A stretch of 64,000 nt of DNA from Roseospira goensis (GTDB taxonomy: Bacteria > Pseudomonadota > Alphaproteobacteria > Rhodospirillales > Rhodospirillaceae): contig NZ_JACIGI010000010.1 of NCBI RefSeq assembly GCF_014197795.1, forward strand, positions 1-64,000, given 5' to 3'. Positions 44,257-57,717 of this stretch are shown piece after piece. A program made the position numbers and the translations under genes. Each line of letters starts with the position of its first letter. The first letter of the stretch is position 1. Under the pieces are notes generated by a model, which did no database searches, had not been told where the DNA came from, and worked only from the letters and a program-made list of their open reading frames with translations.

Positions 44257-45615
44257 ATGGCCCCGCCCCGGATCCGTCTCCCCGTCCTTCGTGCCGACCG
44301 GCCCCCTGGTCCGCCGCGGCTGGTTCCGCTGGCGGCGATCCTGGTGTGGGCGCCGCTGCCGCTGGCCAGCAACCGGCCCTGGTCGACGGCGCTGCTTCTG
44401 CTGCTGCTGTTCGCGCTGGCGGCCTGGAGCGCCATGCGGGGGGATCGTCCGCCCCCCACCCGAGCGGGTGCGTGTGCGTTCACCCTGGCGGGGATTGCGG
44501 TCACCTGGGCGCTGGTGCAGGCCGCGCCGGGCCTGGGGACCGCGCTGCCGCACTGGCAGGACCTGGCCGCCCTGACCGGCCGGCCGCCCTGGGGCGCGCT
44601 GTCGCTGACGCCCGTTTCCACGGTCGAAGGCACCCTGCGGCTGATCGGTTACGGCACGGCAGCGTGGCTGGGCGCGGCCGTGCTCGGCCCGCCGGCCGCG
44701 CGCCTGGGTCTGATGCGGGTGCTGGCGGCCGGAACGGCCGGGCTGGCCATCTACGCGCTGGCCGACCTGCTCAGCGGCAGCCACCGCATCGGCTGGATCG
44801 ACAAGTGGATCTACCAGGACGTCGCCACCGCCACCTTCGTGAACCGCAACGCCTGGTGCGTCTACGCCGGCCTCGGCGCGGCGGCGGCCCTGGTCGCGGC
44901 CGGCGCGGCGGTCACACGGCAGCGCCGCCGGCTCTGGCAGGCCGCCGCCGCACTGACGCTGGTGGCGGCGTTGCTGTCGGAGTCGCGCTGGGGTCTGGTC
45001 AGCGTCGCCGCCGGTCTGGGCACGCTCGCCCTGCTGCGCCCGGGCCGGCCGCCGTGGCGGGCGCTCGCGGCCGGCGGCACCGCCCTGCTCGCAGCGCCGC
45101 TGGGGTTGGCCGCCCTGGGCTGGGACCGGCTGCTGGCGCGGCTGGACCCGGTCCTGGTGCTTGGCGATCTGCGCTGGGACCTGTACCGCGTGACCCTGGA
45201 GGCCATCGCCGCCGCCCCCTGGACCGGCCACGGCCTGGGCAGCTACCCGGTGCTCTACCACCACATCCGCGACGCCGCGCTGGCCGAGGCCCTGGTGCTG
45301 GAGGCGCATTCCGTGCCGCTGGAGCTGCTGGCCGAGCTCGGGATCCCGGCGGCGCTGGCGCTGATGGGCGCCTACGTCGTGCTGGTGGCGGCCGCCGTCC
45401 GGCGGGCGCGGCGGCACGGCGACCCGGTGGCGCGGCTGGCGGCGGCGGCCGGAGTGATGGCGGGCCTGCACGGGCTGCTCGACTTCTCGATGCAGACGCC
45501 GGCGCTGGCGGTCACGGTGCTGGTGCTGCTGGGGGCGGGCGCGACGCCGTCCACGCCGCCCGGGCCCGCGCGATCTCCGGCACCTGCGGCGCCAGCGCCG
45601 CCGCCCGGTCCATGA
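44257..45615 (+). CDS. O-antigen ligase/polymerase-like membrane protein (Wzy_C family)
   Basis: Predicted multi-pass inner-membrane glycan ligase or polymerase, 452 residues. Hydrophobic helices begin at residue about 23 and run to near 420. The periplasmic loop with TGHGLGSYPVLYHHIRDAALAEALVLEAHSVPLELLAELG is the Wzy_C signature. The last about 25 residues are Pro/Ala-rich, and their coding sequence is shared antisense with the end of the TPR-like gene (overlap 45512-45615, 104 bp). It belongs with the glycan genes on the other strand. Whether it ligates O-antigen or polymerises another polymer is not decided by sequence. Confidence 0.85.
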   Translation: MAPPRIRLPVLRADRPPGPPRLVPLAAILVWAPLPLASNRPWSTALLLLLLFALAAWSAMRGDRPPPTRAGACAFTLAGIAVTWALVQAAPGLGTALPHWQDLAALTGRPPWGALSLTPVSTVEGTLRLIGYGTAAWLGAAVLGPPAARLGLMRVLAAGTAGLAIYALADLLSGSHRIGWIDKWIYQDVATATFVNRNAWCVYAGLGAAAALVAAGAAVTRQRRRLWQAAAALTLVAALLSESRWGLVSVAAGLGTLALLRPGRPPWRALAAGGTALLAAPLGLAALGWDRLLARLDPVLVLGDLRWDLYRVTLEAIAAAPWTGHGLGSYPVLYHHIRDAALAEALVLEAHSVPLELLAELGIPAALALMGAYVVLVAAAVRRARRHGDPVARLAAAAGVMAGLHGLLDFSMQTPALAVTVLVLLGAGATPSTPPGPARSPAPAAPAPPPGP

Positions 45616-45886
45616 GACGGTCGACATAGGGCGCAGGCGCGCCGCGCGCGGCCTCCGTCCACGCCAGTCCGGTCCAGGCGAAGGGATCGGCGGGGGAGAG
45701 GGCCAGCGCATCCCGCCAGGCGTTCGCCGCATCGTGCCAGCGCGCCGGGCGGCCCTGGCCCAGGGCCTCGACGACGGCGGCCTCGGCCCGATCGGCCGGC
45801 GCCCCGCGCCCAAGGGCGTGCGCCAGCCACGCCGCCGCCAGCAGCGACAGCCCCAGGAAAGCGACCCCGCGCGCCGCCCGCCTCAT
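45512..45886 (-). CDS. Small TPR-like membrane protein at the end of the glycan operon
   Basis: 124 residues. It has an N-terminal membrane helix (RGVAFLGLSLLAAAWLAHALG), then helical pairs of TPR type (AANAWRDALALSPADPFAWTGLAWTEAARG and a following repeat). The ATG at 45886 overlaps the upstream gene's stop as ATGA, which supports it as a real, coupled gene despite its small size. The last 34 codons overlap antisense the end of the O-antigen ligase gene. It may act in the assembly of the glycan machinery; role inferred only from context. Confidence 0.72.
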   Translation of the reverse strand: MRRAARGVAFLGLSLLAAAWLAHALGRGAPADRAEAAVVEALGQGRPARWHDAANAWRDALALSPADPFAWTGLAWTEAARGAPAPYVDRLMDRAAALAPQVPEIARARAAWTASRPPPAAPAP

Positions 45887-48696
45887 GCCTGTCCCGCCAG
45901 GACGCGCAGCACCGCCGTGTAGGAGTCCAGCAGTGCGCCGTAGCGCGCGCCATCGTCGCCCGCCGGCGCGGCGGGTCGCGGCGCCCGCAGTGCCGCCGCC
46001 AGCCCCCGGGCCAGCGCCGGCGGGTCGGCCGGCGGCACCAGCCAGGTGGCGGGCCAGCGCGCCGCCTGTTCCGGGATGCCGCCGACCGCGGTCGCCACCA
46101 CGGGCAGACCGGCGCGGGCTGCCTCCAGCACCACCCGGGGCGCGGCCTCGGCCCGGCTGGGGCACACGGCCACGTCCGCCGCCGCCCACAGCGCGGCCAT
46201 GTCGGCCCGCTCCCCCAGCAACACGACCCGCCGCGGCCAGGGATCGGGCAGGCGCGCCACGGCGGCGCGCACGCGGCGGCCGTAGCCCTCGGCGTCGCGG
46301 CCGGCCCACAGCAGCCGCACCCGGCCGTGCAGGGCGTCGGGCAGCAGCGGGAGCGCGGCGATCAGGTCCAGCGGCCCCTTGCGCGGATCCAGCGCCCCGG
46401 CGGCCAGCAGGACCCGGTCCTCCCGGTCCCCCCCGGCGCCGGACGACATCCGGGACGGCGCCCCCTCCGCCCGCGGCGGCAGGGCGTTGGGGATCACCGT
46501 GGCGCGATCCGGCGCCACCCAGGCGGCCCAGGCCCGCGCCGTCGTATGGGAAACGAACACCACCCGGTCGGCCTCGGCCAGCGCCGCCAGCGCCCGCGCC
46601 TGCACCGAAACCGACAGGTCGGCCAGCGCCTCCGGTCCCGGCTCCCGGATCACCCATAGGGCGGGGCGTCCCAGCGTGCGGGCCGCGATCGCGCCGGCGA
46701 AGGCGCGCAGGCCGTTGACCAGCACCACCCCCGCCCCGCTGTCGGCCAGGGCCTGCGCCACGCGCGCGGCCAGCCGGTCCAGGTCCCGCACCCCCAGAAG
46801 CCGGCCCGGGGCGATGCGGGTCACGGGCCAGCCCGCCGCCGCCCACAGCGCACCGAGCGGACCGTCGTGCAGCACCAGCGACAGGGCCGGGGTCACCGCG
46901 CCCCGCCCCACGAGGCCGCTCGCCAGTTCCCACAGGCTGAGCGGGGCGCCATCACGCCTCCAGGTCTCGCCGACGCAGGCGAGCCGGAGCGGACCCTCCC
47001 CCGCCGGGGCGACCGGCAGCGGGCGGTGCCCTTCGAGGGACGGCGACAGCCGCGGCGGCTGCGCCGGCCGTGGCGGAGGCATCGCGGGCATGGGAGCGGG
47101 CCGCCCGCGCAGCCCCGCCACCCGGCGCGCGATCTCCCGCCCCTCGCCCCGCAGCCCCAGCCGCGCCAGCGTGCCCAGGCTGCGCGCCAGACCGGCCGGA
47201 CGGAGCCGTACCGCCCGGGCGTGGCGCCGGGTCTCGTCGCCCGGACACGGCGGGGTGTCGTACAGGCGCTCGTGACGGGCCACCAGGGCCGCCGGCGTCA
47301 GCCGCGCCATGTGTGCCCGCCCGGCCGCGGCCAGCCGCGCGCACGCCCCCGTATCGTTCAGCAGATCCACGACCCGCGCCGCCACCGCCGCCGGTGTCGG
47401 CGGCGCGACCGGCAGCCCGGCCAGCGCCTCCGCCACCCCACCGGCCGGGGCCGCCACCACCGGCACGCCGGCGGCCTGGGCCTCCAGGATGGCGTTGGGC
47501 AGGCCCTCGGCAGCGGAGACGTGCAGCAGCACGGCGGCCTCGGCCAGGTGTGGCCCGACCTCCGGCACCCAGCCGGGCGCCTCCACCGCCACCCCCAGGG
47601 CGGCGGCCCGCGCCGCCACCGCACCCCGCAGCGGCCCGTCCCCGAGCAGGCGGAACCGTACGTCCGGCCGCGCCGCCGCCACCCGCGCCGCCACATCCAG
47701 CCACAGCAGCGGCCGCTTGTGCGCCACCAGCCGGAACACCCCCAGGACCAGTGGCGCCAGCCCGGCCGGGGGTGGTCCCGACGCGGGGACGGCGACGCCG
47801 TTCGGGATCACCAGCGGCGCCGCGATGCCGGCCCAGCGCGCATGATCGGCCGCCACCGCCGCCGCGTTGCCGGTCACCGTCACCGCCGGATGGCGCGCCA
47901 GCGCCGCCAGCCCTGGCCGCAGCGCCCCGGCCAGCGGGTGGCCATGGCGGTCCGGCGCCCGGTTGCGCAGGCCCACCACCACCGCCGGCACCCCCAGTGC
48001 CGCCGCCACACCCGCCACCACGGCGGTGCCGTCGAGCCAGCCATGCACCGCCCGCGGCCGCCACGCCGCCAGCCAGCCGGCCACCGCCAGCAGGTCTCCG
48101 GCCAGGGCGTCGGGCAGGCCGGCCGCCGCCCGCTCCAGCCGCGCCAGCCCCGGGGTGTCATGGGGCGGCGGATCGGTCCACACCGCCACCGGGATCCCGG
48201 CCGCCGCCAGCCCCGGCGCGAGCGCCGCCGCCCCCGGCCGATCCCGCAGGTGCCGGACCAGCACCCGCACCGGCCAGCCCCGCGCCGCCAGCCCGCCCGC
48301 CAGCATCGCCATCTGCCGCTGGGCGCCGTCGCCGGCCAGCGAGGGAACCACCATCACCACCGGCCCCTCGGCCCGTCCGCACACCGGCCGATCGCAGGCC
48401 AGCACCCGTGCCCAGGCCAGCGCCGCCGCCCCCGGTCCCATCGCCCGCAACCGCCGCCCCGCCCGCCCGGCCAGCAGGGCGGCCGGCGTGGTCTCGCGCC
48501 AGACGCCGCCGGCGTCGCGGACCGCGACCACCGGCACGCGCTGGCGCCAGGCCGCCCACAGCACGGACGCGGTCAGCGACCGCACACCGCCCGGCGCCAC
48601 CAGCCGGTCGCACGGCGGCAGCACCAGCCGCCAGTCCCGCGCGTCACCGGGCTGGTGCGTCACGTCGGGGCCCACGACCACCGTCCGGCCGCTCAT
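45883..48696 (-). CDS. Double family 4 glycosyltransferase (two GT domains in one chain)
   Basis: A 937-residue protein with two complete GT-B modules. Module 1 (residues about 110-500) has GDGAQRQMAMLAGGLAARGWPV, the FRLVAHKRPLLWLDVAARVA linker strand and HVSAAEGLPNAILEAQAAGVPVVAAP. Module 2 (about 575-930) has RRDGAPLSLWELASGLVGRG, AAGALDPRKGPLDLIAALPL and CPSRAEAAPRVVLEAARAGLPVVATAVGGIPE. Both carry the EX7E-type donor motif. A disordered Pro-rich linker joins them. ATG at 48696 overlaps the preceding stop by 4 bases. The tandem could add two sugars in sequence; the donors and acceptor are unknown. Confidence 0.87.
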   Translation of the reverse strand: MSGRTVVVGPDVTHQPGDARDWRLVLPPCDRLVAPGGVRSLTASVLWAAWRQRVPVVAVRDAGGVWRETTPAALLAGRAGRRLRAMGPGAAALAWARVLACDRPVCGRAEGPVVMVVPSLAGDGAQRQMAMLAGGLAARGWPVRVLVRHLRDRPGAAALAPGLAAAGIPVAVWTDPPPHDTPGLARLERAAAGLPDALAGDLLAVAGWLAAWRPRAVHGWLDGTAVVAGVAAALGVPAVVVGLRNRAPDRHGHPLAGALRPGLAALARHPAVTVTGNAAAVAADHARWAGIAAPLVIPNGVAVPASGPPPAGLAPLVLGVFRLVAHKRPLLWLDVAARVAAARPDVRFRLLGDGPLRGAVAARAAALGVAVEAPGWVPEVGPHLAEAAVLLHVSAAEGLPNAILEAQAAGVPVVAAPAGGVAEALAGLPVAPPTPAAVAARVVDLLNDTGACARLAAAGRAHMARLTPAALVARHERLYDTPPCPGDETRRHARAVRLRPAGLARSLGTLARLGLRGEGREIARRVAGLRGRPAPMPAMPPPRPAQPPRLSPSLEGHRPLPVAPAGEGPLRLACVGETWRRDGAPLSLWELASGLVGRGAVTPALSLVLHDGPLGALWAAAGWPVTRIAPGRLLGVRDLDRLAARVAQALADSGAGVVLVNGLRAFAGAIAARTLGRPALWVIREPGPEALADLSVSVQARALAALAEADRVVFVSHTTARAWAAWVAPDRATVIPNALPPRAEGAPSRMSSGAGGDREDRVLLAAGALDPRKGPLDLIAALPLLPDALHGRVRLLWAGRDAEGYGRRVRAAVARLPDPWPRRVVLLGERADMAALWAAADVAVCPSRAEAAPRVVLEAARAGLPVVATAVGGIPEQAARWPATWLVPPADPPALARGLAAALRAPRPAAPAGDDGARYGALLDSYTAVLRVLAGQA

Positions 48697-49709
48697 GGGG
48701 GCCGCACCCGTCCCGGGGCCGGCGCCCGCGCCAGCCGCCGGCGCGGATCCCAGGTCAGGACGCCGGCGATCGTCCACCACGGCACCATGCGAGCGCGCTG
48801 GATCACCCGGCGCTGGCGCCACACCGCCGGCAGGGCCCGCAGCCCGTCCCGCACGCCGCGGGCGTCCACCGCCAGCCGGCCACGCCAGGCGGCCCGCCCC
48901 AGCAGCAGCAGGACCAGCCCCGCGAACCCCGGCAGCAGGGGCCAGAACAGCGGCCCGGGGGTGCAGCGCACGAACAGCCAGATCCGGTTGCGGCTGGTGT
49001 GGTAGCGGATGAAGTCGCTGTCGATCCCGTTGGTGGCCGAGCCCACGTGCGCCACGCGGGCCGTCGGCACGCACACCACGGCACCGCCGCGCAGCCTCAG
49101 GCGGTAGGCCAGGTCGGTGTCGTCGCAGTAACAGAAGAAGGCATCGGGAAACCCGCGGGCCGCATCCCAGGCGGCGCGCCGGTACAGCGCAGCCGCGGCG
49201 CAGGCGGAAAAGCACGGTCCCTCGACCAGCCGATGCGACGGCGGCAGCGGCCGCCCCTGACCGCCGCGCCAGGCCAGCGCCAGGGGCATCATCTCGTCGC
49301 CCAGGCCGTCGCACTGGGTGGGATCGGCGGCGTCGGAGAGCAGGCTGGCAAACGCGGTGACGCGCGGATGGCGCCGGCTCGCCGCCCGCAGCGCCGCCAG
49401 CCAGTCCGGATCCGGAAACGCGTCCGGGTTGAGGAGGGCCACGAACGGCGCCGGCGGCGCGCCGGTGTCGTGGGTCGCGCCCACGGTGTTGGCGCGGGAA
49501 TAGCCGATGTTGTCCGGCAGACGGACCACATGGATCCGCGCATCGTCGGGCAGCGCCGCAGCCAGCGCAGCGGGATCGCTGCCGTTGGCGACCACCACCG
49601 CCTCGAAGCCCGGATCGGTCTGCGCACACAGCGCCGCCAGGCAGCGCGCCAGCAGCGGTCCCTCGTTCAGGGTCACCACCACCACCCGCACCCACGGCCG
49701 CGCCGTCAT
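48693..49709 (-). CDS. Family 2 glycosyltransferase (rhamnosyltransferase-like)
   Basis: GT-A enzyme of 338 residues. The N-terminus RVVVVTLNEGPLLARCLAAL and VVVANGSDP fit family 2, ALLNPDAFPDPDWLAAL supplies the metal/donor Asp (DxD-like, N-P-D), and DAFFCYCDDTDLAYRLRLRGG gives the catalytic-base segment. A C-terminal hydrophobic stretch (about residues 255-275) may associate with the membrane. The ATG at 49709 overlaps the radical SAM stop by 4 bases. Part of a five-gene coupled operon. Confidence 0.92.
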   Translation of the reverse strand: MTARPWVRVVVVTLNEGPLLARCLAALCAQTDPGFEAVVVANGSDPAALAAALPDDARIHVVRLPDNIGYSRANTVGATHDTGAPPAPFVALLNPDAFPDPDWLAALRAASRRHPRVTAFASLLSDAADPTQCDGLGDEMMPLALAWRGGQGRPLPPSHRLVEGPCFSACAAAALYRRAAWDAARGFPDAFFCYCDDTDLAYRLRLRGGAVVCVPTARVAHVGSATNGIDSDFIRYHTSRNRIWLFVRCTPGPLFWPLLPGFAGLVLLLLGRAAWRGRLAVDARGVRDGLRALPAVWRQRRVIQRARMVPWWTIAGVLTWDPRRRLARAPAPGRVRPP

Positions 49710-50599
49710 GCCCCCACGGCCTCCGCCCCAGTCTCCGCCCCAGTCTCCGCCCCACCCAGCGGCTGCCGGCGCGTGAAGGTGCGGTCGCAGGCCTCGGTAC
49801 AGGCGGTATCACAGCGGTGATCGCCCGTCCGCCAGGCGAACGAGCCGTCGAACAGGTTGCCCAGTTCCAGCCGGTCGCGGGAGCACCGCCGCGCCGTCCC
49901 GAACGGGTCGATGTGGCAATAGGCCGTGCCCGCATCGCACAGCCGGGAGCCGGTCGACGGATACGCCTCCTGCCCCGGCCCGTCGCTGCTCATCGGTACG
50001 CCCGACGCCCGCAGCCGGGCCAGCGCGGCCGGGCTGTAGGTCGGCGTGGGATCACCCACCGGCCGGTTCAGATACTGGCCGCGCGCCGCCAGCCCCAGCG
50101 CCCGCAAGCGGGCGATCCAGCCGGGCAGCGCGTCGATCCAGCGCGGATCGGCCACGATCGTGCAGGTCAGGCGCGGCCGCAGCGCCGGGCGGCGGTCGAA
50201 CAGGCCGTGCAGGGCGGCGGCGCGGGCAACGAAGGCGTCGAAGCCGGTGAAGTCGGGATGGAACGACAGCGTGACGTACTCGAACCGCTCCCAGAACCCC
50301 GGTGGCCAGGCGGTGGGATCGCGCCACAGGTTGGTGGTCATGCGCAGCGGTGCCGGATATCCCAGCACGAAAGCCGCGAACCCCTTCAGCACCGTGGGCT
50401 CACCGCCCGCCACATGCACCAGCGGCGCGCCGATGCCGATCAGGGCCGCGCTCCAGTCCGACAGCGCATGCTCGCCCGGCTGGCGGCGCTTGCTCTTGAT
50501 GCGGCAATACGGGCAGTCGTAGTTGCACAACAGCGACGGCAGGATCACCGCCAGCCGCCGCCCGCCCGGCCCGCCGATGGGTTCGACCGGGCGGCTCAC
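49706..50599 (-). CDS. Radical SAM protein with extra C-terminal cysteines
   Basis: 297 residues. The N-terminal cluster motif is Cys25-x3-Cys29-x2-Cys32 (LLCNYDCPYCRIKSK), followed by a GGEPTV SAM-binding segment. The C-terminal part has several more Cys (LCDAGTAYCHIDPFGTARRCSRD and CDTACTEACDRTF), suggesting SPASM/twitch-type auxiliary iron-sulfur clusters. GTG at 50599 overlaps the upstream stop as GTGA, supporting the start; the open frame beyond is antisense filler. The last residues are a short GAET repeat. Placed among glycosyltransferases, it may modify a sugar, lipid or peptide; substrate unknown. Confidence 0.86.
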   Translation of the reverse strand: MSRPVEPIGGPGGRRLAVILPSLLCNYDCPYCRIKSKRRQPGEHALSDWSAALIGIGAPLVHVAGGEPTVLKGFAAFVLGYPAPLRMTTNLWRDPTAWPPGFWERFEYVTLSFHPDFTGFDAFVARAAALHGLFDRRPALRPRLTCTIVADPRWIDALPGWIARLRALGLAARGQYLNRPVGDPTPTYSPAALARLRASGVPMSSDGPGQEAYPSTGSRLCDAGTAYCHIDPFGTARRCSRDRLELGNLFDGSFAWRTGDHRCDTACTEACDRTFTRRQPLGGAETGAETGAEAVGA

Positions 50600-53500
50600 G
50601 GCACGGCCTCCCGGCGCAGCACGGCCGTCTCCCAATCCGTGCCCAGCAGGCGAACGCCGGGCGTCGTGGCGGCCACCTCGCGCACGAACGGCGCCACGTC
50701 CGGCCACGCGGCGGCGCCCACGTCGTCGATCAGCGCCAGCCCACCGGGCCGCAGCAGCGGCGCGAACCGGGCCCAGTCGGCGGCGAGCCCGGCGCGGTCG
50801 TGGCGCCCGTCCAGCACCAGCAGCCCCAGACCATCGGGCCGCGCCCAGGCCCGCACCCGCGCCAGCGCCACCGGGTCGTCGCTGCGCCGGCGCACCAGGG
50901 TGACGCCATGGCGCGGCAGCCCGGCCCGCGCCAGCACGGCGCGCACCATGGGCGCGGTGACCGGCGCGCCGGTGACCGGGTCGGCGGCGGCGCCGTAGCT
51001 GCCACCGTCCAGGGGATCGAGGCCAAGCAGCCGCAGCCGCCGCCCCTGCCCCTCCACCCCGGCGGCCAGGACGGCGAGGCCGAGGCCGAACAGCACCCCC
51101 ACCTCCAGGGCGCGCAGGTCCGGCCCCGGGCTGGCCCGCGCCGCCAGCGCCCGCAGCAGGGCCGCCGGCAGCGCACAGGCGAGGCGGCCGCCGCCGGCCC
51201 GTTCGCGGGCCAGCAGACGCTCCGCGAGGTAGCCAAGGGCGCGCGGCGTCATGTCGGGCAGGCCCAGGGCCGGCAGCCAGACGGTGCGCAGGCGCGCGAC
51301 GTCGGTGTCCGACAGGCCGCGCGGGAAGGGCTGGAAGCGGGCCGCCCCCAGCGCCCCGGCATGCTCCAGGTCGCAGCGCAGGGCCGCCAGGCGCGGCGCC
51401 AGAGACTGCTCCTCCAGGCGGCCGCGCAGCCCGGCCAGGGCAGCCCCGGTGCGCTGGCGGTCATCGGCCAGCGCCCCGGTCAAGCTCGCGGCCACGGCAC
51501 GGTCGCCCCGGGCGGCGGCGCGCTCGGCCTCGGTCACCGCCGCCTGCCAGGCCGCATCGCGGGCCGCGCCTTCGCGCGCCAGATCCGCCCGCATCCCGGA
51601 CACCGTCTCGGCCAGCCCGCGCCGGTCCCGGGCCTGGCGCGCGTCCAGCGCCGTCAGGTGGTTGGACAGCGACCCGGTCGCGGCCTCCAGATCCCGGGCC
51701 GACGCCGTCGCGGCCAGGGCCTCGCCCGCCTCCACAAGGGCGCGGTCCACGAACCGAACGGCAGCGGCGAGGTCCGCCGCCTGGGCGGCGAGACCGTCGG
51801 CGACCCGCCCGGCCAGCCGTCCGACCTCTTGCTCCCCGGCGCCAAGTCGGTCCTCGGCGGCCGCGAGGCGATCCTCGGCGGCGGCCAGCGCCGCGGCCAG
51901 CGCGTCGCGCACCCGCCCCAGGTGGCGCGTCAGGGCGGCCTCGACATGGCGATCGGCGTCCTCGCGCGCCCGGCGCTCGGCGTCGCGCGCGGTCGCCAGA
52001 TCGGCCGCCAGGGTCGCGGCCGGGCCGGCGCGGGCCGCCCCCTCCGCCGCAAGCCGGCCCTCCAGCCCGGCGAGGTCATCGCGCAGCCAGCCCACGTGGC
52101 GCTTCAGCTTGGTTTCCTGCGCCCGCGCCGCCGCGTGCCGGTCGAGCCGCTCCAGGCGGCGCCCGCGCACATGACCATAGGCCGCGAAGCCCAGCGCCCC
52201 GCTCATCGCCAGCGCGGCCAGCAGCGAGGACCCCGGCCACGGCACCAGCGGCGCGGCCCCGGCCGCCACCACCAGCCCCCCGGCCAGCGGCGCCCGCCAG
52301 CCGCCCAGGACCGCCGCCATCTCCCCGGCCAGCCCCCGCCCGCGCCGCCACCAGGGATCGGGGGGCGGCAGCGGGGACGGAGCCGGCGCGGCGGGCGGCG
52401 CGGCGAGTGGCGTGGTGTCGGGCGCCGGCGTCGGCGCGGCGGCCGGATCACCGGGCCGCGTCTCCAGCGGGGCCACGGGGTCGGTGTCCTGCACCGGCTC
52501 CGGTCGCGGATCGAGGGTCAGCGCCGCCCGCACCATGCCGGCCAGGGCGTCGTCGTTGGGCAGGCCGGCGTCCGGACACACGGCGATCACGTTGCCCCAG
52601 CCGTCAGGGTCGGGCAACGGGTCGGCATCTCCCGGCGGCCAGGGGATCAGGCGGCGCCAGTCGTGGCGCGCGCCGTAACGGACCACCGGGTGCCATTCGC
52701 TCACGAACACCCGGTAGCCGCGCCCCTCCAGCAGCGCCACCAGGTCCCCCAGCGACCAGCCCAGGCGCAGGGTCTTGCGGTTCTCGAACTCGGCCATGAC
52801 CACGCGCGGGCGCCAGCGCGCCCAGTCCAGGCCCAGCAGCACCCGCAGATCCCAGCCCTCGGCGTCCACCTTGAGCACGTCCACGGCATCCATGCCGTGA
52901 CGCTCCAGGAGGGTGGTCAGCGTCTCCACCGGCACCCGCGCGGTCTCGCGGTGGCCGTCCAGGAACGGCGCCAGGGTGGCCACCCCGGTGCTGTCCGGCG
53001 CGGTGTAGAGCGGCGCCGCCGCGGCGGGCGCATCGGACAGCGCCACCGGCTCGACCGTGACGGCCGCCGCGTCGGCCACGCGCGCCCGCAGCGCGGCGCG
53101 GTTGTCCGGCTCCGGCTCCACTGCCACCCCCGACCAGCCGGCCTCCAGGAACCGGGTCAGGAATCCGCCCCGGTGCGCGCCCACATCCACCAACAGGCCC
53201 GGCGCCGTGGTCTGGAACCGGGCCAGGCCGAGCAGCAGCGCGGTCTCGTCCAGTCGGGCGCCGTCCAGGCGCGGGTGGTCGGCGGACAGCACCCGCCGGC
53301 CGGCCCCGGCCGCGGCCCCGCGCACCAGCGTCCGCAAGCGGTCGCGGCGCGGCGCCAGGGCATAGGCCTCGCAGGCATGGGCGCGCCCCGCCGCCCCCAG
53401 GCGCGCCGCCAACGCCGGGTCCGACACCAGCCCCGACAGCGCCGCGCGCAGGGCGGCGGGATCGCGCTCCGTCACCCGCACCGCCGCCCCCGACTCGGCC

Positions 53501-55416
53501 AGGGCTGCCAGGGTGGCCTGCTCCGCCGGGCCGTAGCCGAACACCGCCGCCCCCGACGCCAGCGCCTCCGGCAGGGTATTGGCCAGGGAATGGCGGGTGT
53601 AGAGCCGGCTGTCCTCGTCGAACGCATAGGCGATCAGCACGCCGTCGGCCGCGCACAGGCGGGCGCGGTACGGGGCCGGGTCGGGATCGTCCGCCACCGT
53701 GGCGACAACCCCGGACCGGTCCGCCGCCAGCGCCCGCGCCGGCGCGATCCAGGGCGGCAGAACGCGCAGCTCCAGCCGCACCAGCGGCCGGCCGGCGGCA
53801 CGATTGAGAGCGTCCACCGCGTCCGCCACATCGCGCACGGCGGCGCGGTTCATGTCCTCGGCCAACGCCCCAGCGTAGAGCAGGTCGAACGGCCGGTCCG
53901 GACAGCCCGCCCCCGGCGACCGGTCGCGCGCCGGCCAGTCCGCCGGGTCGATGCCGTTGGCCAGCGCCTCCCACGTGCCGCCGCCGTACCGGTCGCGGAA
54001 CGCCACGACCATCGACGCGCCGATGCCGAGCCGCACGGCCGCTCGTCCGGCCAGCCACGCCAGGTCCTGCGCCCAGACCTGATGCACCAGGGGATCGGTG
54101 CGCGCCAGCAGCGCCGGCCAATCGTCCATCAGGTGCAGGATCAGGGGCGCCCCCAGGCCCTCGACCAGATCCAGGGCCAGCGGATGCAGATGGCCGCGCG
54201 TCGGCTGCGGCCGGTAGTACAGGGCCTCAGGCGCGAAGGCGCGCGCCCGCGCCGCCGCCGTGCCGGCGTCCACGCCGGCCTCGGCGCGACCGTCCGGGTG
54301 GTGCACGGTGAAGCGATCGGGCGCGCCATCGGGCGTGATCGCCAGCAGCCGCCCGCCGCACCACGGCGCCATCAGGGCGGCCTTCACCTGCCCGGTCGCC
54401 GACAGCCCGCCCACCGGCGTCAGATCCAGCACCAGCAGGCGCGGCGCGGGCGCGGTGCTGTCGGCCAGCACCCGGTCCAGCGGTACCCGTGGCACCAGGT
54501 CCATGCGCCCGCCCGGTGTGCCGTTGATCAGCCGCGCCCCCAGGCCCGCGAGCGCGTCGCGGGCGGCGGCGAAGGCCCGGCCCATGTTCTCCACCTGGGG
54601 ATCGTGCCAGCGCTTGCCCTTGCCGAAGTAGTCGGGGTGGAAGTGGTTGGGGTCGTCGCTGGCCATGTCCAGCACCCCGGGGCCGGCCCCCGCGCCGCCC
54701 GCCGTGCGGGTGGCGTCCGCCGGGATGGCGTAGTCGAGATCGACCCCCAGCAGCACCACCTCGCGCGCGCCCAGGAAGACGGCAAGCTGCACCGCGGTAA
54801 AGGCCACCGTGCAGCCGGCATAGGTGCAGCTCAGCGCGTCCAGCGAGACGTCGAAGCGGTCCGGATAGCCGGGCCGCGGGCGGTGGTCGAACCAGACCAC
54901 GTCCGGCCCTTCGTCGAGCGCATAGGCCAGGGTGATCGGGAACAGGCGCGTGAGGCCGGCCGGCAGCCCGTTGAGCGCAGCGGCCCGATCCTCGGCCACC
55001 AGGTGGTCCTCGACCAGGTAGTAGGTCGGCCGGAACCGGGTCTGCGGGAAGGCCAGGAACAGCCCGTTGACGCCGATGGTGACCTGATCGGCCAGGCTGT
55101 CCAGGTCGATCCGCCCCAGGCTGGGCCCGTTGCCCAGCACGAACACCCGCCGGCCCTTGTGGCGGTCGCGCAGCGCCGCCAGGCGCGGCCGGTGCGCGGC
55201 GGCCCAACGGCCGTCGTACAGGTCCACCACCCGGCGCAGGCCGGCGACCCGCGCCGCCGGCGTCAGGCGCGCGGTCGGCAGGAAGATCGGGGCGCGCAGG
55301 GAGGACGGCAGGCGGGCCACCAAAGCGGCCTCCTCGCGCGCCAGAGCCGCCGCCTCCGCTTCAGGGCTCTGTTCCGCTTGGGACAGTCCGACCGCCACCG
55401 GCATCCTCGTATGCAT
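50596..55416 (-). CDS. Very large multidomain protein: DUF115-like, glycosyltransferase, FkbM methyltransferase, coiled coil, second methyltransferase
   Basis: A 1606-residue protein of unusual architecture. Residues about 85-300 are a DUF115/MAF-like domain (VFVLGNGPSLGRIDLDSLAD, LLGVDLDY). About 325-700 form a GT-B-like module (LYAGALAEDMNRAAVRDV, SLANTLPEALASGAAVFGYG). About 735-945 are a FkbM-type SAM methyltransferase (LLVDVGAHRGGFLTRFLE, DVLKVDAEGWDLRVL). A Pro-rich linker follows to about 1020, then one or two membrane helices (about 1043-1082), a long coiled coil (about 1090-1350), and a last class I methyltransferase (about 1434-1600, LEVGVLFGLGLAVLAA, LLRPGGLALIDD). Start ATG at 55416 follows GAGG; ATG at 55404 is an alternative. 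First of five coupled genes. DUF115 proteins are linked to flagellin glycosylation in known cases. Confidence 0.85.
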   Translation of the reverse strand: MHTRMPVAVGLSQAEQSPEAEAAALAREEAALVARLPSSLRAPIFLPTARLTPAARVAGLRRVVDLYDGRWAAAHRPRLAALRDRHKGRRVFVLGNGPSLGRIDLDSLADQVTIGVNGLFLAFPQTRFRPTYYLVEDHLVAEDRAAALNGLPAGLTRLFPITLAYALDEGPDVVWFDHRPRPGYPDRFDVSLDALSCTYAGCTVAFTAVQLAVFLGAREVVLLGVDLDYAIPADATRTAGGAGAGPGVLDMASDDPNHFHPDYFGKGKRWHDPQVENMGRAFAAARDALAGLGARLINGTPGGRMDLVPRVPLDRVLADSTAPAPRLLVLDLTPVGGLSATGQVKAALMAPWCGGRLLAITPDGAPDRFTVHHPDGRAEAGVDAGTAAARARAFAPEALYYRPQPTRGHLHPLALDLVEGLGAPLILHLMDDWPALLARTDPLVHQVWAQDLAWLAGRAAVRLGIGASMVVAFRDRYGGGTWEALANGIDPADWPARDRSPGAGCPDRPFDLLYAGALAEDMNRAAVRDVADAVDALNRAAGRPLVRLELRVLPPWIAPARALAADRSGVVATVADDPDPAPYRARLCAADGVLIAYAFDEDSRLYTRHSLANTLPEALASGAAVFGYGPAEQATLAALAESGAAVRVTERDPAALRAALSGLVSDPALAARLGAAGRAHACEAYALAPRRDRLRTLVRGAAAGAGRRVLSADHPRLDGARLDETALLLGLARFQTTAPGLLVDVGAHRGGFLTRFLEAGWSGVAVEPEPDNRAALRARVADAAAVTVEPVALSDAPAAAAPLYTAPDSTGVATLAPFLDGHRETARVPVETLTTLLERHGMDAVDVLKVDAEGWDLRVLLGLDWARWRPRVVMAEFENRKTLRLGWSLGDLVALLEGRGYRVFVSEWHPVVRYGARHDWRRLIPWPPGDADPLPDPDGWGNVIAVCPDAGLPNDDALAGMVRAALTLDPRPEPVQDTDPVAPLETRPGDPAAAPTPAPDTTPLAAPPAAPAPSPLPPPDPWWRRGRGLAGEMAAVLGGWRAPLAGGLVVAAGAAPLVPWPGSSLLAALAMSGALGFAAYGHVRGRRLERLDRHAAARAQETKLKRHVGWLRDDLAGLEGRLAAEGAARAGPAATLAADLATARDAERRAREDADRHVEAALTRHLGRVRDALAAALAAAEDRLAAAEDRLGAGEQEVGRLAGRVADGLAAQAADLAAAVRFVDRALVEAGEALAATASARDLEAATGSLSNHLTALDARQARDRRGLAETVSGMRADLAREGAARDAAWQAAVTEAERAAARGDRAVAASLTGALADDRQRTGAALAGLRGRLEEQSLAPRLAALRCDLEHAGALGAARFQPFPRGLSDTDVARLRTVWLPALGLPDMTPRALGYLAERLLARERAGGGRLACALPAALLRALAARASPGPDLRALEVGVLFGLGLAVLAAGVEGQGRRLRLLGLDPLDGGSYGAAADPVTGAPVTAPMVRAVLARAGLPRHGVTLVRRRSDDPVALARVRAWARPDGLGLLVLDGRHDRAGLAADWARFAPLLRPGGLALIDDVGAAAWPDVAPFVREVAATTPGVRLLGTDWETAVLRREAVP

Positions 55417-55530
55417 CTGGCCTCGACCCGCATTCCGTGATACACGGTACTTTGCGTGTATACGCTCGGTCAACGCAAGCATTGTTATTGCCTGATGCTC
55501 GGCGTCTTCTGCTTCGGTACCGCTGCCCGG

Positions 55531-57717
55531 ATGCGACCCAGACCGTCGGCGCGCGGAGGCCCGCCGGGCCGGGCCGTTCTGCTCGCGGCCGTGCTGTCCC
55601 TTCCGGGCCTGCTGGCCGGATGCGGCACCGCGTCGGACGGCTTCCTCGCGCGTGGCGTCGCCGGGCATCACTACATCGAAGGGGCACGGCGCAACCTGGA
55701 AGGACAGGTTGAGGCCGCCCGCGACGCCTGGACCCGCGCCGCCGAGGCCGGCCACGCCAAGGCCCAGTTCCAGCTCGCCCACCTGTACGGGTCCGACGTG
55801 CTGGGGCCGCGCGACCAGGCCCGGGCGCTGGCCTATGCCCGCCGCGCGGCCAAGGACGGCTTCGCCCCCGCCGCGCACTACGTCGGCATGACGCTGCTGT
55901 ACGGCTGGGGCGGACTGGACAAGGACCCGGCGGCGGCGGAACCGTTCCTGCGCCGCGCCGTCGACGCCGACATCGACCGCGCTCGCGCCGACCTGGGCAC
56001 CCTGCTGCTGGACCGCGCCGGCGACGGCCGGGACGCGGCGGCGGCGGCGGACCGCGCCGAGGGTTTGGCGCTGCTGACGGCCGCCGTGGACGCCGGGGAA
56101 CCGACCGCCGGGCTGCACCTGGGCGAGGCGCTGATGGCCGGCACGCACACGGCCCGCGACCCGGGACGGGCGGCCGACCTGCTGACCGCGGCGGTCGAGG
56201 CCGGGGAGTACCGCGCCGCCCTGCCCCTGGCCCGCCTGCACCGGCTGGGCGACGGCGTGCCCGAGAATCCCGCCGCCGCGCTGGCGCTGCTGGATCGGGT
56301 CGAGGCCGAGGCCCCCGCCTACGTCCGCGTGCGCCTTGGGCGCGCCCTCCTCGACCCGGACGATCCCTTGCCCCTGGACCCGGCGCGGGCCCGCAGGGTG
56401 CTGCAACGGGCCGCCGACGAGGGCCGCGTCTCTGCCCATGTGGTTCTCGGCAAGCTGCTGGCGGAGGGCGCCCCGGGCCTGCCCCCCGACCCGGCCGCGG
56501 CCCTGGCCCACCTGCGCACCGCGGCCGAGGCCGGCAACGGCGAGGCCACCCGCTACATGGGGCGCCTGCTCCAGGACCAGGGGCGCGCCGACGACGCCAT
56601 CCGGTGGTTCCTGGAGGCGGCGGACCGGGGCCACGACCACGCGGCCGTGGAAGCGGCGCGCCTGCTGCTCAAGCGCGGCGATGCGGCGGCGGCGCGTCAG
56701 GCGGTGGCGCTGCTGGGCGGGGTGGCGCCGCGCCACACACCGGCGGCGATCCAGCTCGCGCGGGTGGCCCGGGACGGCGTGGACGGGGTGCTGCCGCCGG
56801 ATCCGGTGATGGCCCGACGCTGGCTCCAGCACGTGCGGGAAACAGGATCCGCCAAGGCGGCGGCGCAGGCCACCAACGACCTCGCCCGGCTGGTGTTGCG
56901 TGGCCAGGGCGGCCCGCCCGCGCCGCAGCAGGCGGCGGCGTTGTTCCGGGAGGCGGCGCGCGGCGGCCACGCCTGGGCGGCCCTGGAGTTGGGCCGCCTC
57001 TTCGAGGACGGGGCCGGCCCGCTGCCAGCGGATCCGCAGGCGGCCTGGGCCTGGTACACCGAGGCGGCGGCGCGCGGGGTGGCCCAGGCGCACACCGCGT
57101 TGGCGCGGATCCTGGTCCGCGACGGACGCGGTCCGGACACCCTGCGCCAGGCGTTCGCCCATTTCGCCAAGGCCGCCGAGGGCGGCCACGACTGGGCGCT
57201 GTACGAGGCCGGCAAGGCGGCGGAGCGCGGCGCTGCGGGCCTGCCCGCCGACCCGGCGATGGCCCGCGCCTGGTACGAGCAGGCCGCCGCGCAGGGTGTC
57301 GACGCGGCGCCCGGCGCCCTCGCCAGCCTGTACGAGCGCGGCCTGGGCGTGCCCCGCGACGACGGCCGCGCGCTCGCCCTGTACCAGCTCGGCGCCCGGG
57401 CCGGCAACGCCTGGGCCACCTACAAGGTCGGCCTCCTGCTGGCGGAGGGGCGCGGCGCCGCCGCCGATCCCATGGCAGCGCGGGCGTGGCTGCACACGGC
57501 CGCCGCCGCGGGCGTCGATCAGGCCACCGCCGCCCTGGCGCGCCTGGACGGGAACGGGGACGACACCGGCCGCACGGCCGCCGCCGGGCCGGACGCGGGA
57601 ACCGCGGGCGACGGCCCCCGGGGCAGCCCCAGCGACGATCACACCGGCACGCCGGGTCCGGAGCCGACGGGTCCCGATCTGCGGATCCCGGTCACCACCC
57701 CGCAGCCAGAGTCCTGA
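55531..57717 (+). CDS. SEL1-repeat lipoprotein
   Basis: 728 residues. An N-terminal lipoprotein signal (AVLLAAVLSLPGLLAGC, lipobox LAGC) is followed by many SEL1-type TPR repeats across nearly the whole length (for example AAEAGHAKAQFQLAHLYGSDVLGPRDQARALAYARRAAKDG). There are about 15 pairs, with AlgK-like spacing. ATG at 55531 places the lipobox normally; two in-frame starts upstream (55456, 55495) would add an unlikely stretch. Divergent from the large multidomain gene. SEL1 lipoproteins of this kind serve as scaffolds in polysaccharide export or secretion, which fits the neighbours; its partner is unknown. Confidence 0.85.
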   Translation: MRPRPSARGGPPGRAVLLAAVLSLPGLLAGCGTASDGFLARGVAGHHYIEGARRNLEGQVEAARDAWTRAAEAGHAKAQFQLAHLYGSDVLGPRDQARALAYARRAAKDGFAPAAHYVGMTLLYGWGGLDKDPAAAEPFLRRAVDADIDRARADLGTLLLDRAGDGRDAAAAADRAEGLALLTAAVDAGEPTAGLHLGEALMAGTHTARDPGRAADLLTAAVEAGEYRAALPLARLHRLGDGVPENPAAALALLDRVEAEAPAYVRVRLGRALLDPDDPLPLDPARARRVLQRAADEGRVSAHVVLGKLLAEGAPGLPPDPAAALAHLRTAAEAGNGEATRYMGRLLQDQGRADDAIRWFLEAADRGHDHAAVEAARLLLKRGDAAAARQAVALLGGVAPRHTPAAIQLARVARDGVDGVLPPDPVMARRWLQHVRETGSAKAAAQATNDLARLVLRGQGGPPAPQQAAALFREAARGGHAWAALELGRLFEDGAGPLPADPQAAWAWYTEAAARGVAQAHTALARILVRDGRGPDTLRQAFAHFAKAAEGGHDWALYEAGKAAERGAAGLPADPAMARAWYEQAAAQGVDAAPGALASLYERGLGVPRDDGRALALYQLGARAGNAWATYKVGLLLAEGRGAAADPMAARAWLHTAAAAGVDQATAALARLDGNGDDTGRTAAAGPDAGTAGDGPRGSPSDDHTGTPGPEPTGPDLRIPVTTPQPES

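Follow-up and report, generated by a model that had tools for sequence, protein, structure and literature searches.

A single-chain protein of Roseospira goensis predicted to join glycosyltransferase and methyltransferase modules for a surface polysaccharide

A reading frame of 1606 codons was analysed in a 64,000-nucleotide stretch of DNA from the purple bacterium Roseospira goensis (contig NZ_JACIGI010000010.1, positions 1 to 64,000; the window). Its product, hereafter the giant, is very probably a multi-enzyme for a surface polysaccharide. A wider reading, in which the giant is a cytoplasmic, membrane-anchored assembly protein whose last module caps the chain, is given a probability of about 45%. 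The parts of the giant are of known kinds; their arrangement is undescribed as far as the open literature shows, no protein or family of this architecture having been recognised there by title or by the start of the abstract. The gene and its modules (GT, glycosyltransferase; MT, methyltransferase; CMP, cytidine monophosphate; pLDDT, predicted local distance difference test) are as follows.

50596..55416, reverse strand: giant gene, 1606 residues, translated frame from ATG to TGA, start codon uncertain
54442..55209, reverse strand: DUF115/MptE-like domain (residues 70-325), predicted CMP-sugar-dependent GT, GT42-related (Pfam, profile search, model)
53302..54441, reverse strand: GT-B/GT4-type GT (residues 326-705; profile search, model, fold search)
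52708..53187, reverse strand: FkbM MT (residues 744-903; PF05050, TIGR01444)
52168..52293, reverse strand: predicted membrane hairpin (residues 1042-1083; hydropathy, borderline, and model)
51406..52167, reverse strand: long helical segment, possible coiled coil (residues 1084-1337; model at moderate pLDDT, heptad test negative in this copy)
50599..51318, reverse strand: second MT (residues 1367-1606), Methyltransf_24, closest solved structure MeT1 (Pfam, profile search, model)

The frame contains no internal stop across its 1606 codons. Matches to the giant in six congeners start at residues 7-28 and end, for the best pieces, at residues 1168-1215, with 69-77% identity over the best pieces and 68-74% over the C-terminal pieces, and the same module order is found in all seven Rhodospira/Roseospira genomes searched; Rhodospira trueperi and Roseospira marina each have a copy of their own. 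Conservation of the full module order in six congeneric genomes rules out a chance or shadow frame, and comparison confirms the giant as a real gene with conserved domains. The frame stays open further upstream, to 57762, so the exact start is uncertain. The original prediction, made from this DNA alone, had read five blocks in this order in one frame; this is confirmed, with the coiled coil borne out in part, and the motifs it named are present in the translation.

The first domain points to a sugar transferase. PF01973 (MptE-like/DUF115) scores 26.6 bits on this copy (residues 79-230), below its cut-off of 34.6, and matches 45 of 48 alignment rows of relatives at E 0.1, with a best E of 8e-25. 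The motifs GxGPSL and DxNHFxPxYFGxGxxW are invariant. When the DUF115 profile was compared with the PDB, the best match was to GT42 sialyltransferases (1ro8, E 4.2e-7, profile positions 25-171 of 252), a relationship detectable by sequence that includes the NGPSL motif, while MptE (8sd5, E 0.0025) and Maf (5mu5, E 0.014) matched more weakly. GT42 enzymes such as CstII carry a catalytic His. The DxNHF motif also has an invariant His, and the alignment with 1ro8 ends before it. No GT42 enzyme is among the fold-search matches listed for the model of residues 55-740, where the GT-B domain filled the list. By profile comparison, the first domain is closer to GT42 sialyltransferases than to Maf, and it probably uses a CMP-sugar donor.

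The genes found with DUF115 bear on this donor. Comparison of 84 DUF115 loci shows an association with a predicted CMP-sugar synthetase: 38 of them have, within the fetched stretch, a cytidylyltransferase belonging to a single family (E <= 1e-15), against 17 for galE, 15 for gmd, 13 for fcl, 9 for rfbB, 2 for ugd and 0 for the presumed KdsB. At an identity of at least 45%, the counts are 32 for the cytidylyltransferase versus 5, 13, 12, 5, 2 and 0, respectively. The same loci contain a dehydrogenase (36), Wzt (28), GT2 (22) and Wzm (12). In several phyla, DUF115 genes are repeatedly accompanied by a block made up of GT2, cytidylyltransferase and 2-hydroxyacid dehydrogenase genes (L045:6418-13218, L043:1226-5898, L135-L137), which by annotation also stands beside MptE-like genes on roseobacter plasmids (Sulfitobacter, Thalassovita, Gemmobacter). 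Leisingera has an NTP-transferase and a dehydrogenase, with no GT2 in the stretch seen and no match to the cytidylyltransferase queries, and Acuticoccus lacks the block.

Within the genus, no cytidylyltransferase lies near the giant (0/6 loci); the gene is located elsewhere in those genomes. The R. goensis genome has two CTP_transf_3 genes, one of which we take to be KdsB from its sequence; the second is 49% identical to the cytidylyltransferase of the Niveispirillum cluster. This second gene is present in 7/7 genomes of the genus at an identity of at least 65%, versus a best near-full-length match of 38% in the 38 other genomes of the family, which are without a full-length DUF115-GT. Co-occurrence of the cytidylyltransferase and DUF115-GT gives P 2e-8 in a Fisher test, a value that is no evidence of independent events because the test sets one clade against the rest. 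Judged from translations, the second cytidylyltransferase (L103; R. goensis contig C63:1907-2647) lies near glutaredoxin and peptide ABC permease genes, and the 3.5 kb inspected there shows no obvious sugar genes.

The GT module was recognised by structure and profile. No Pfam GT family reaches E 1 on this copy, and such families match up to 19 of the 48 rows of relatives, many of which are the DUF115 domain only. The model of residues 55-740 has a mean pLDDT of 91.9 and shows a GT-B fold at residues 324-707. GT4 enzymes have a C-terminal E/G motif, and a GT4-like motif of this kind is present in the module. Its best PDB match by profile is ManT (7qsg, E 1.8e-5), which ranks only 12th by structure. 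The FkbM module is clear by Pfam (PF05050, E 3e-19, 70.2 bits against a cut-off of 22.7) and by TIGR01444 (74.9 bits against 37.7); searched alone, this segment matches no PDB sequence at E 0.01. The last MT exceeds the cut-off of PF13578 (Methyltransf_24; residues 1437-1566, E 1.4e-10) and has the fold and the invariant D and H residues of sugar O-methyltransferases of the MeT1/MycF/NovP type, its best PDB profile match being mycobacterial MeT1 (6g7d, E 2.7e-6). The domain annotation and structure prediction called for at the outset supported both MTs and the GT-B fold, and left PF01973 and the Pfam GT families short of their thresholds in this copy.

The segment between the two MTs is less sharply defined. 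Residues 1042-1083 form a run of 42 uncharged residues whose Kyte-Doolittle maximum of 1.49 falls below the threshold used for membrane segments (1.6). At that threshold, four of the six congeners have a membrane segment at this site, and three of those have two. Four helices are modelled over residues 1062-1337 with moderate confidence. The heptad score of the rod is reached by 285 of 500 shuffles and is therefore not above shuffles, as in three of the seven genus copies (this one included); in the other four it is reached by 2 to 22 of 200 shuffles. Of the predicted coiled coil after two membrane helices, long helices are modelled at moderate confidence, the hairpin is borderline and the heptad pattern is not supported in this copy.

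To survey the architecture, 79 loci were fetched (L023-L101). The order DUF115, GT, FkbM, last MT occurs in one frame in 11 of them, six from the genus and five from outside it (L029, L030, L031, L036, L040), one of the latter belonging to a filamentous cyanobacterium. The giant, conserved and shared with other lineages, is therefore not unique. Searches of the open literature gave no established function for this architecture. Three loci have the first three domains only (L032 among them, cut by the contig end) and seven the first two only. In L029, L030, L031 and L036 the frame is extended N-terminally by 630-860 residues, within which L031 and L036 have a second DUF115 match. Membrane segments precede the last MT in L029, L030, L036 and L040, and were not seen in L031.

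Other genomes carry the same parts unfused. In Niveispirillum and an Azospirillum metagenome-assembled genome, which are hardly independent because five of six neighbouring genes are 89-100% alike, DUF115 and GT-FkbM are adjacent genes. The module order is permuted in L043, with the MT separate, and DUF115, GT-FkbM and MT occupy separate frames in L058, where one membrane segment is followed by a helical stretch and the MT; in L059 two membrane segments precede a separate MT gene. In the split form, the adjoining genes are GT2, cytidylyltransferase, dehydrogenase, sulfotransferase, DUF115 and GT-FkbM. The occurrence of the same parts both fused and split suggests that the modules act on one glycan. 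Among 41 genomes sampled from the family, the full DUF115-GT was found only in three members of the genus, with weak partial matches in four others. A phage search with the giant gave no match, and eight plasmid records matched in part.

A second DUF115 match is present in 7/7 genomes of the genus, two of these matches having internal stops. A DUF115 paralogue of ∼450 residues also lies between EAL/GGDEF signalling genes (L132:8379-9731; R. goensis contig C6).

Three neighbouring genes in the window are as follows.

49706..50599, reverse strand: radical SAM gene, downstream of the giant, its start overlapping the giant's stop (GTGA) (neighbour scan, sequence)
45883..49935, reverse strand: gene with two GT4 domains, true start probably later (neighbour scan)
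44257..45615, forward strand: Wzy_C O-antigen ligase/polymerase family gene, with homologues in 6/6 genus loci

Across the genus, the order 3' of the giant is radical SAM and/or GT2, double GT4 (6/6) and convergent Wzy_C (6/6). The radical SAM gene has homologues in 3/6 genus loci, some of the others carrying a GT2 gene there. In relatives, the Henriciella cluster (L030) includes GDP-mannose dehydratase and GDP-fucose synthase, both L030 and L043 have ABC-2 permeases, and Wzt_C passes its cut-off in L036 but narrowly misses it in L030 and L043. A survey around other DUF115 genes (90 proteins, 25 of 106 families listed) was led, among the families listed, by GT2 (13), methyltransferases (up to 9 per family) and ABC (7), followed by 2-hydroxyacid dehydrogenase, TPR, FkbM, Methyltransf_24 and radical SAM (4 each) and Wzy_C (3). 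Those neighbours of the giant that are annotated, and the neighbours of its relatives, are polysaccharide genes. Together with the Wzm/Wzt-type exporters near some relatives, this context upholds the earlier idea that one chain combines multiple enzyme modules to make a surface glycan.

The radical SAM product weakly resembles the STM4011 family, scoring 33 bits where the cut-off is 200. A divergent Sel1-repeat protein gene occupies positions 55456-57717 of the forward strand, and five of the six genus loci have, upstream of the giant, a divergent frame of 717-871 residues that is homologous among them.

In the mechanism proposed here, sugars would be added by the DUF115 domain, with a CMP-activated donor, and by the GT4 domain, with a nucleotide-diphosphate donor, and a sugar would be O-methylated by the FkbM domain. 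The hairpin would anchor these modules at the inner membrane, the site of lipid-linked chain growth, and the helical rod would carry the last O-methyltransferase away from them. The most likely role of this last MT would be to finish chains grown long enough, the rod possibly serving as a ruler, and capped chains would be exported by a Wzm-Wzt transporter equipped with a sugar-binding domain. Comparison places such a Wzm-Wzt_C pair in the genome, on contig C54 beside GT2 genes, and this exporter may serve this glycan; contig C9 has a second ABC-2 match and a weak Wzt_C match. Of the priming, extension and capping steps originally envisaged, no evidence was found for priming, while extension and capping are plausible. 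On contig C54, downstream of wzm-wzt and the GT2 genes, lies a gene for a 1400-residue protein with an RTX-type repeat match (L130:9789-13991).

Several observations weigh against the capping model. The genes scanned in the cluster include Wzy_C and neither Wzm nor Wzt, which are also missing by homology from the six genus loci; the heptad test is negative in this copy; and MeT1 methylates the reducing end, according to the part of PMC9883506 available. An association of Wzt with the last MT, considered as proof of a terminator, was not significant (P 0.17). The same observations on Wzy_C, the exporter and the rod could fit another scheme, in which the giant assembles a repeat unit by adding two sugars and two internal methyl groups, and Wzx/Wzy-type polymerisation follows, the last MT being no terminator and the rod a scaffold. 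This scheme is possible but doubtful: Wzm and Wzt with Wzt_C occur in the clusters of some relatives and as a pair in this genome, Wzy_C also covers the O-antigen ligases that an ABC-type O-polysaccharide needs, and L058 and L059 encode the membrane-helix-MT module separately.

Glycosylation of flagellin or another protein, as by Maf, is improbable. The original prediction had linked DUF115/MAF to flagellin, and 5mu5 does appear in the profile search, but the GT42 enzymes score far better (E 4e-7 versus 0.014). No flagellar family is among those listed for the scanned neighbours, NeuB has no match in the genome although one was found in 9 of 14 control genomes, the identical domain order occurs in a filamentous cyanobacterium, and relatives' neighbours are polysaccharide genes; the flagellin reading was rejected on this gene context, profile ranking and lack of NeuB. 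A pterin diphosphokinase, as the name MptE-like and the PF01973 and 8sd5 matches would have it, is very improbable and was rejected on the stronger GT42 profile matches, DUF115 also being fused to sugar enzymes and located in polysaccharide clusters.

DUF115/MptE-like domains are found in polysaccharide loci of many phyla, while the Pfam name points to pterin metabolism; the GT42 link and the recurring cytidylyltransferase-dehydrogenase pair give them a testable donor class. Tentatively, the giant may represent a new class of single-chain polysaccharide machine, with a membrane GT42-related CMP-sugar transferase, GT4, an internal MT, a helical ruler and a MeT1-like capping MT. DUF115 proteins would then largely be CMP-sugar transferases served by a NeuB-independent CMP-sugar synthetase.

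Known systems share parts of this design. Both GT42 sialyltransferases (CstII) and Maf (5mu5) are matched by the DUF115 profile; the giant differs in its own signature, DPNHFHPDYFGxGxxWHDP, and in the lack of a NeuB match in its genome. Mycobacterial ManT and MeT1, the top PDB sequence-profile matches of the GT4 module and the last MT, are enzymes of methylmannose polysaccharide synthesis, a pathway that likewise combines a GT, putative internal methylation and end methylation on one glycan, although as separate proteins rather than one chain (PMC9883506, available part). WbdD of E. coli O9a resembles the giant in using a methyltransferase and a coiled coil to control O-polysaccharide length, but has a kinase and no GT modules (PMC3482155, available part). 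Assembly systems for ABC-type O-polysaccharides separate the terminator from the polymerase modules by a coiled coil, with the terminator on its distal end, and the finished chain end is recognised by the sugar-binding domain of Wzt (PMC11231755, available part). From the same text, WbbB (Klebsiella O12) and ORF6-O7 (Klebsiella O7) each join GT modules, a coiled-coil segment and a distal chain-finishing module in one chain, the last being a Kdo transferase in WbbB and a methyltransferase-kinase in ORF6-O7. The giant's layout of catalytic modules, hairpin, rod and distal MT may follow the same logic and would fit a terminator at the rod's far end. It differs in running in the reverse order, in having a predicted membrane hairpin and in its kinds of module, which are GT42-related and GT4 for the GTs and FkbM and MeT1-like for the MTs, with no kinase found; its coiled coil is weak and its function is predicted. 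The giant could be a second way, alongside WbbB and ORF6-O7, of uniting polymer length control and end-capping in one chain.

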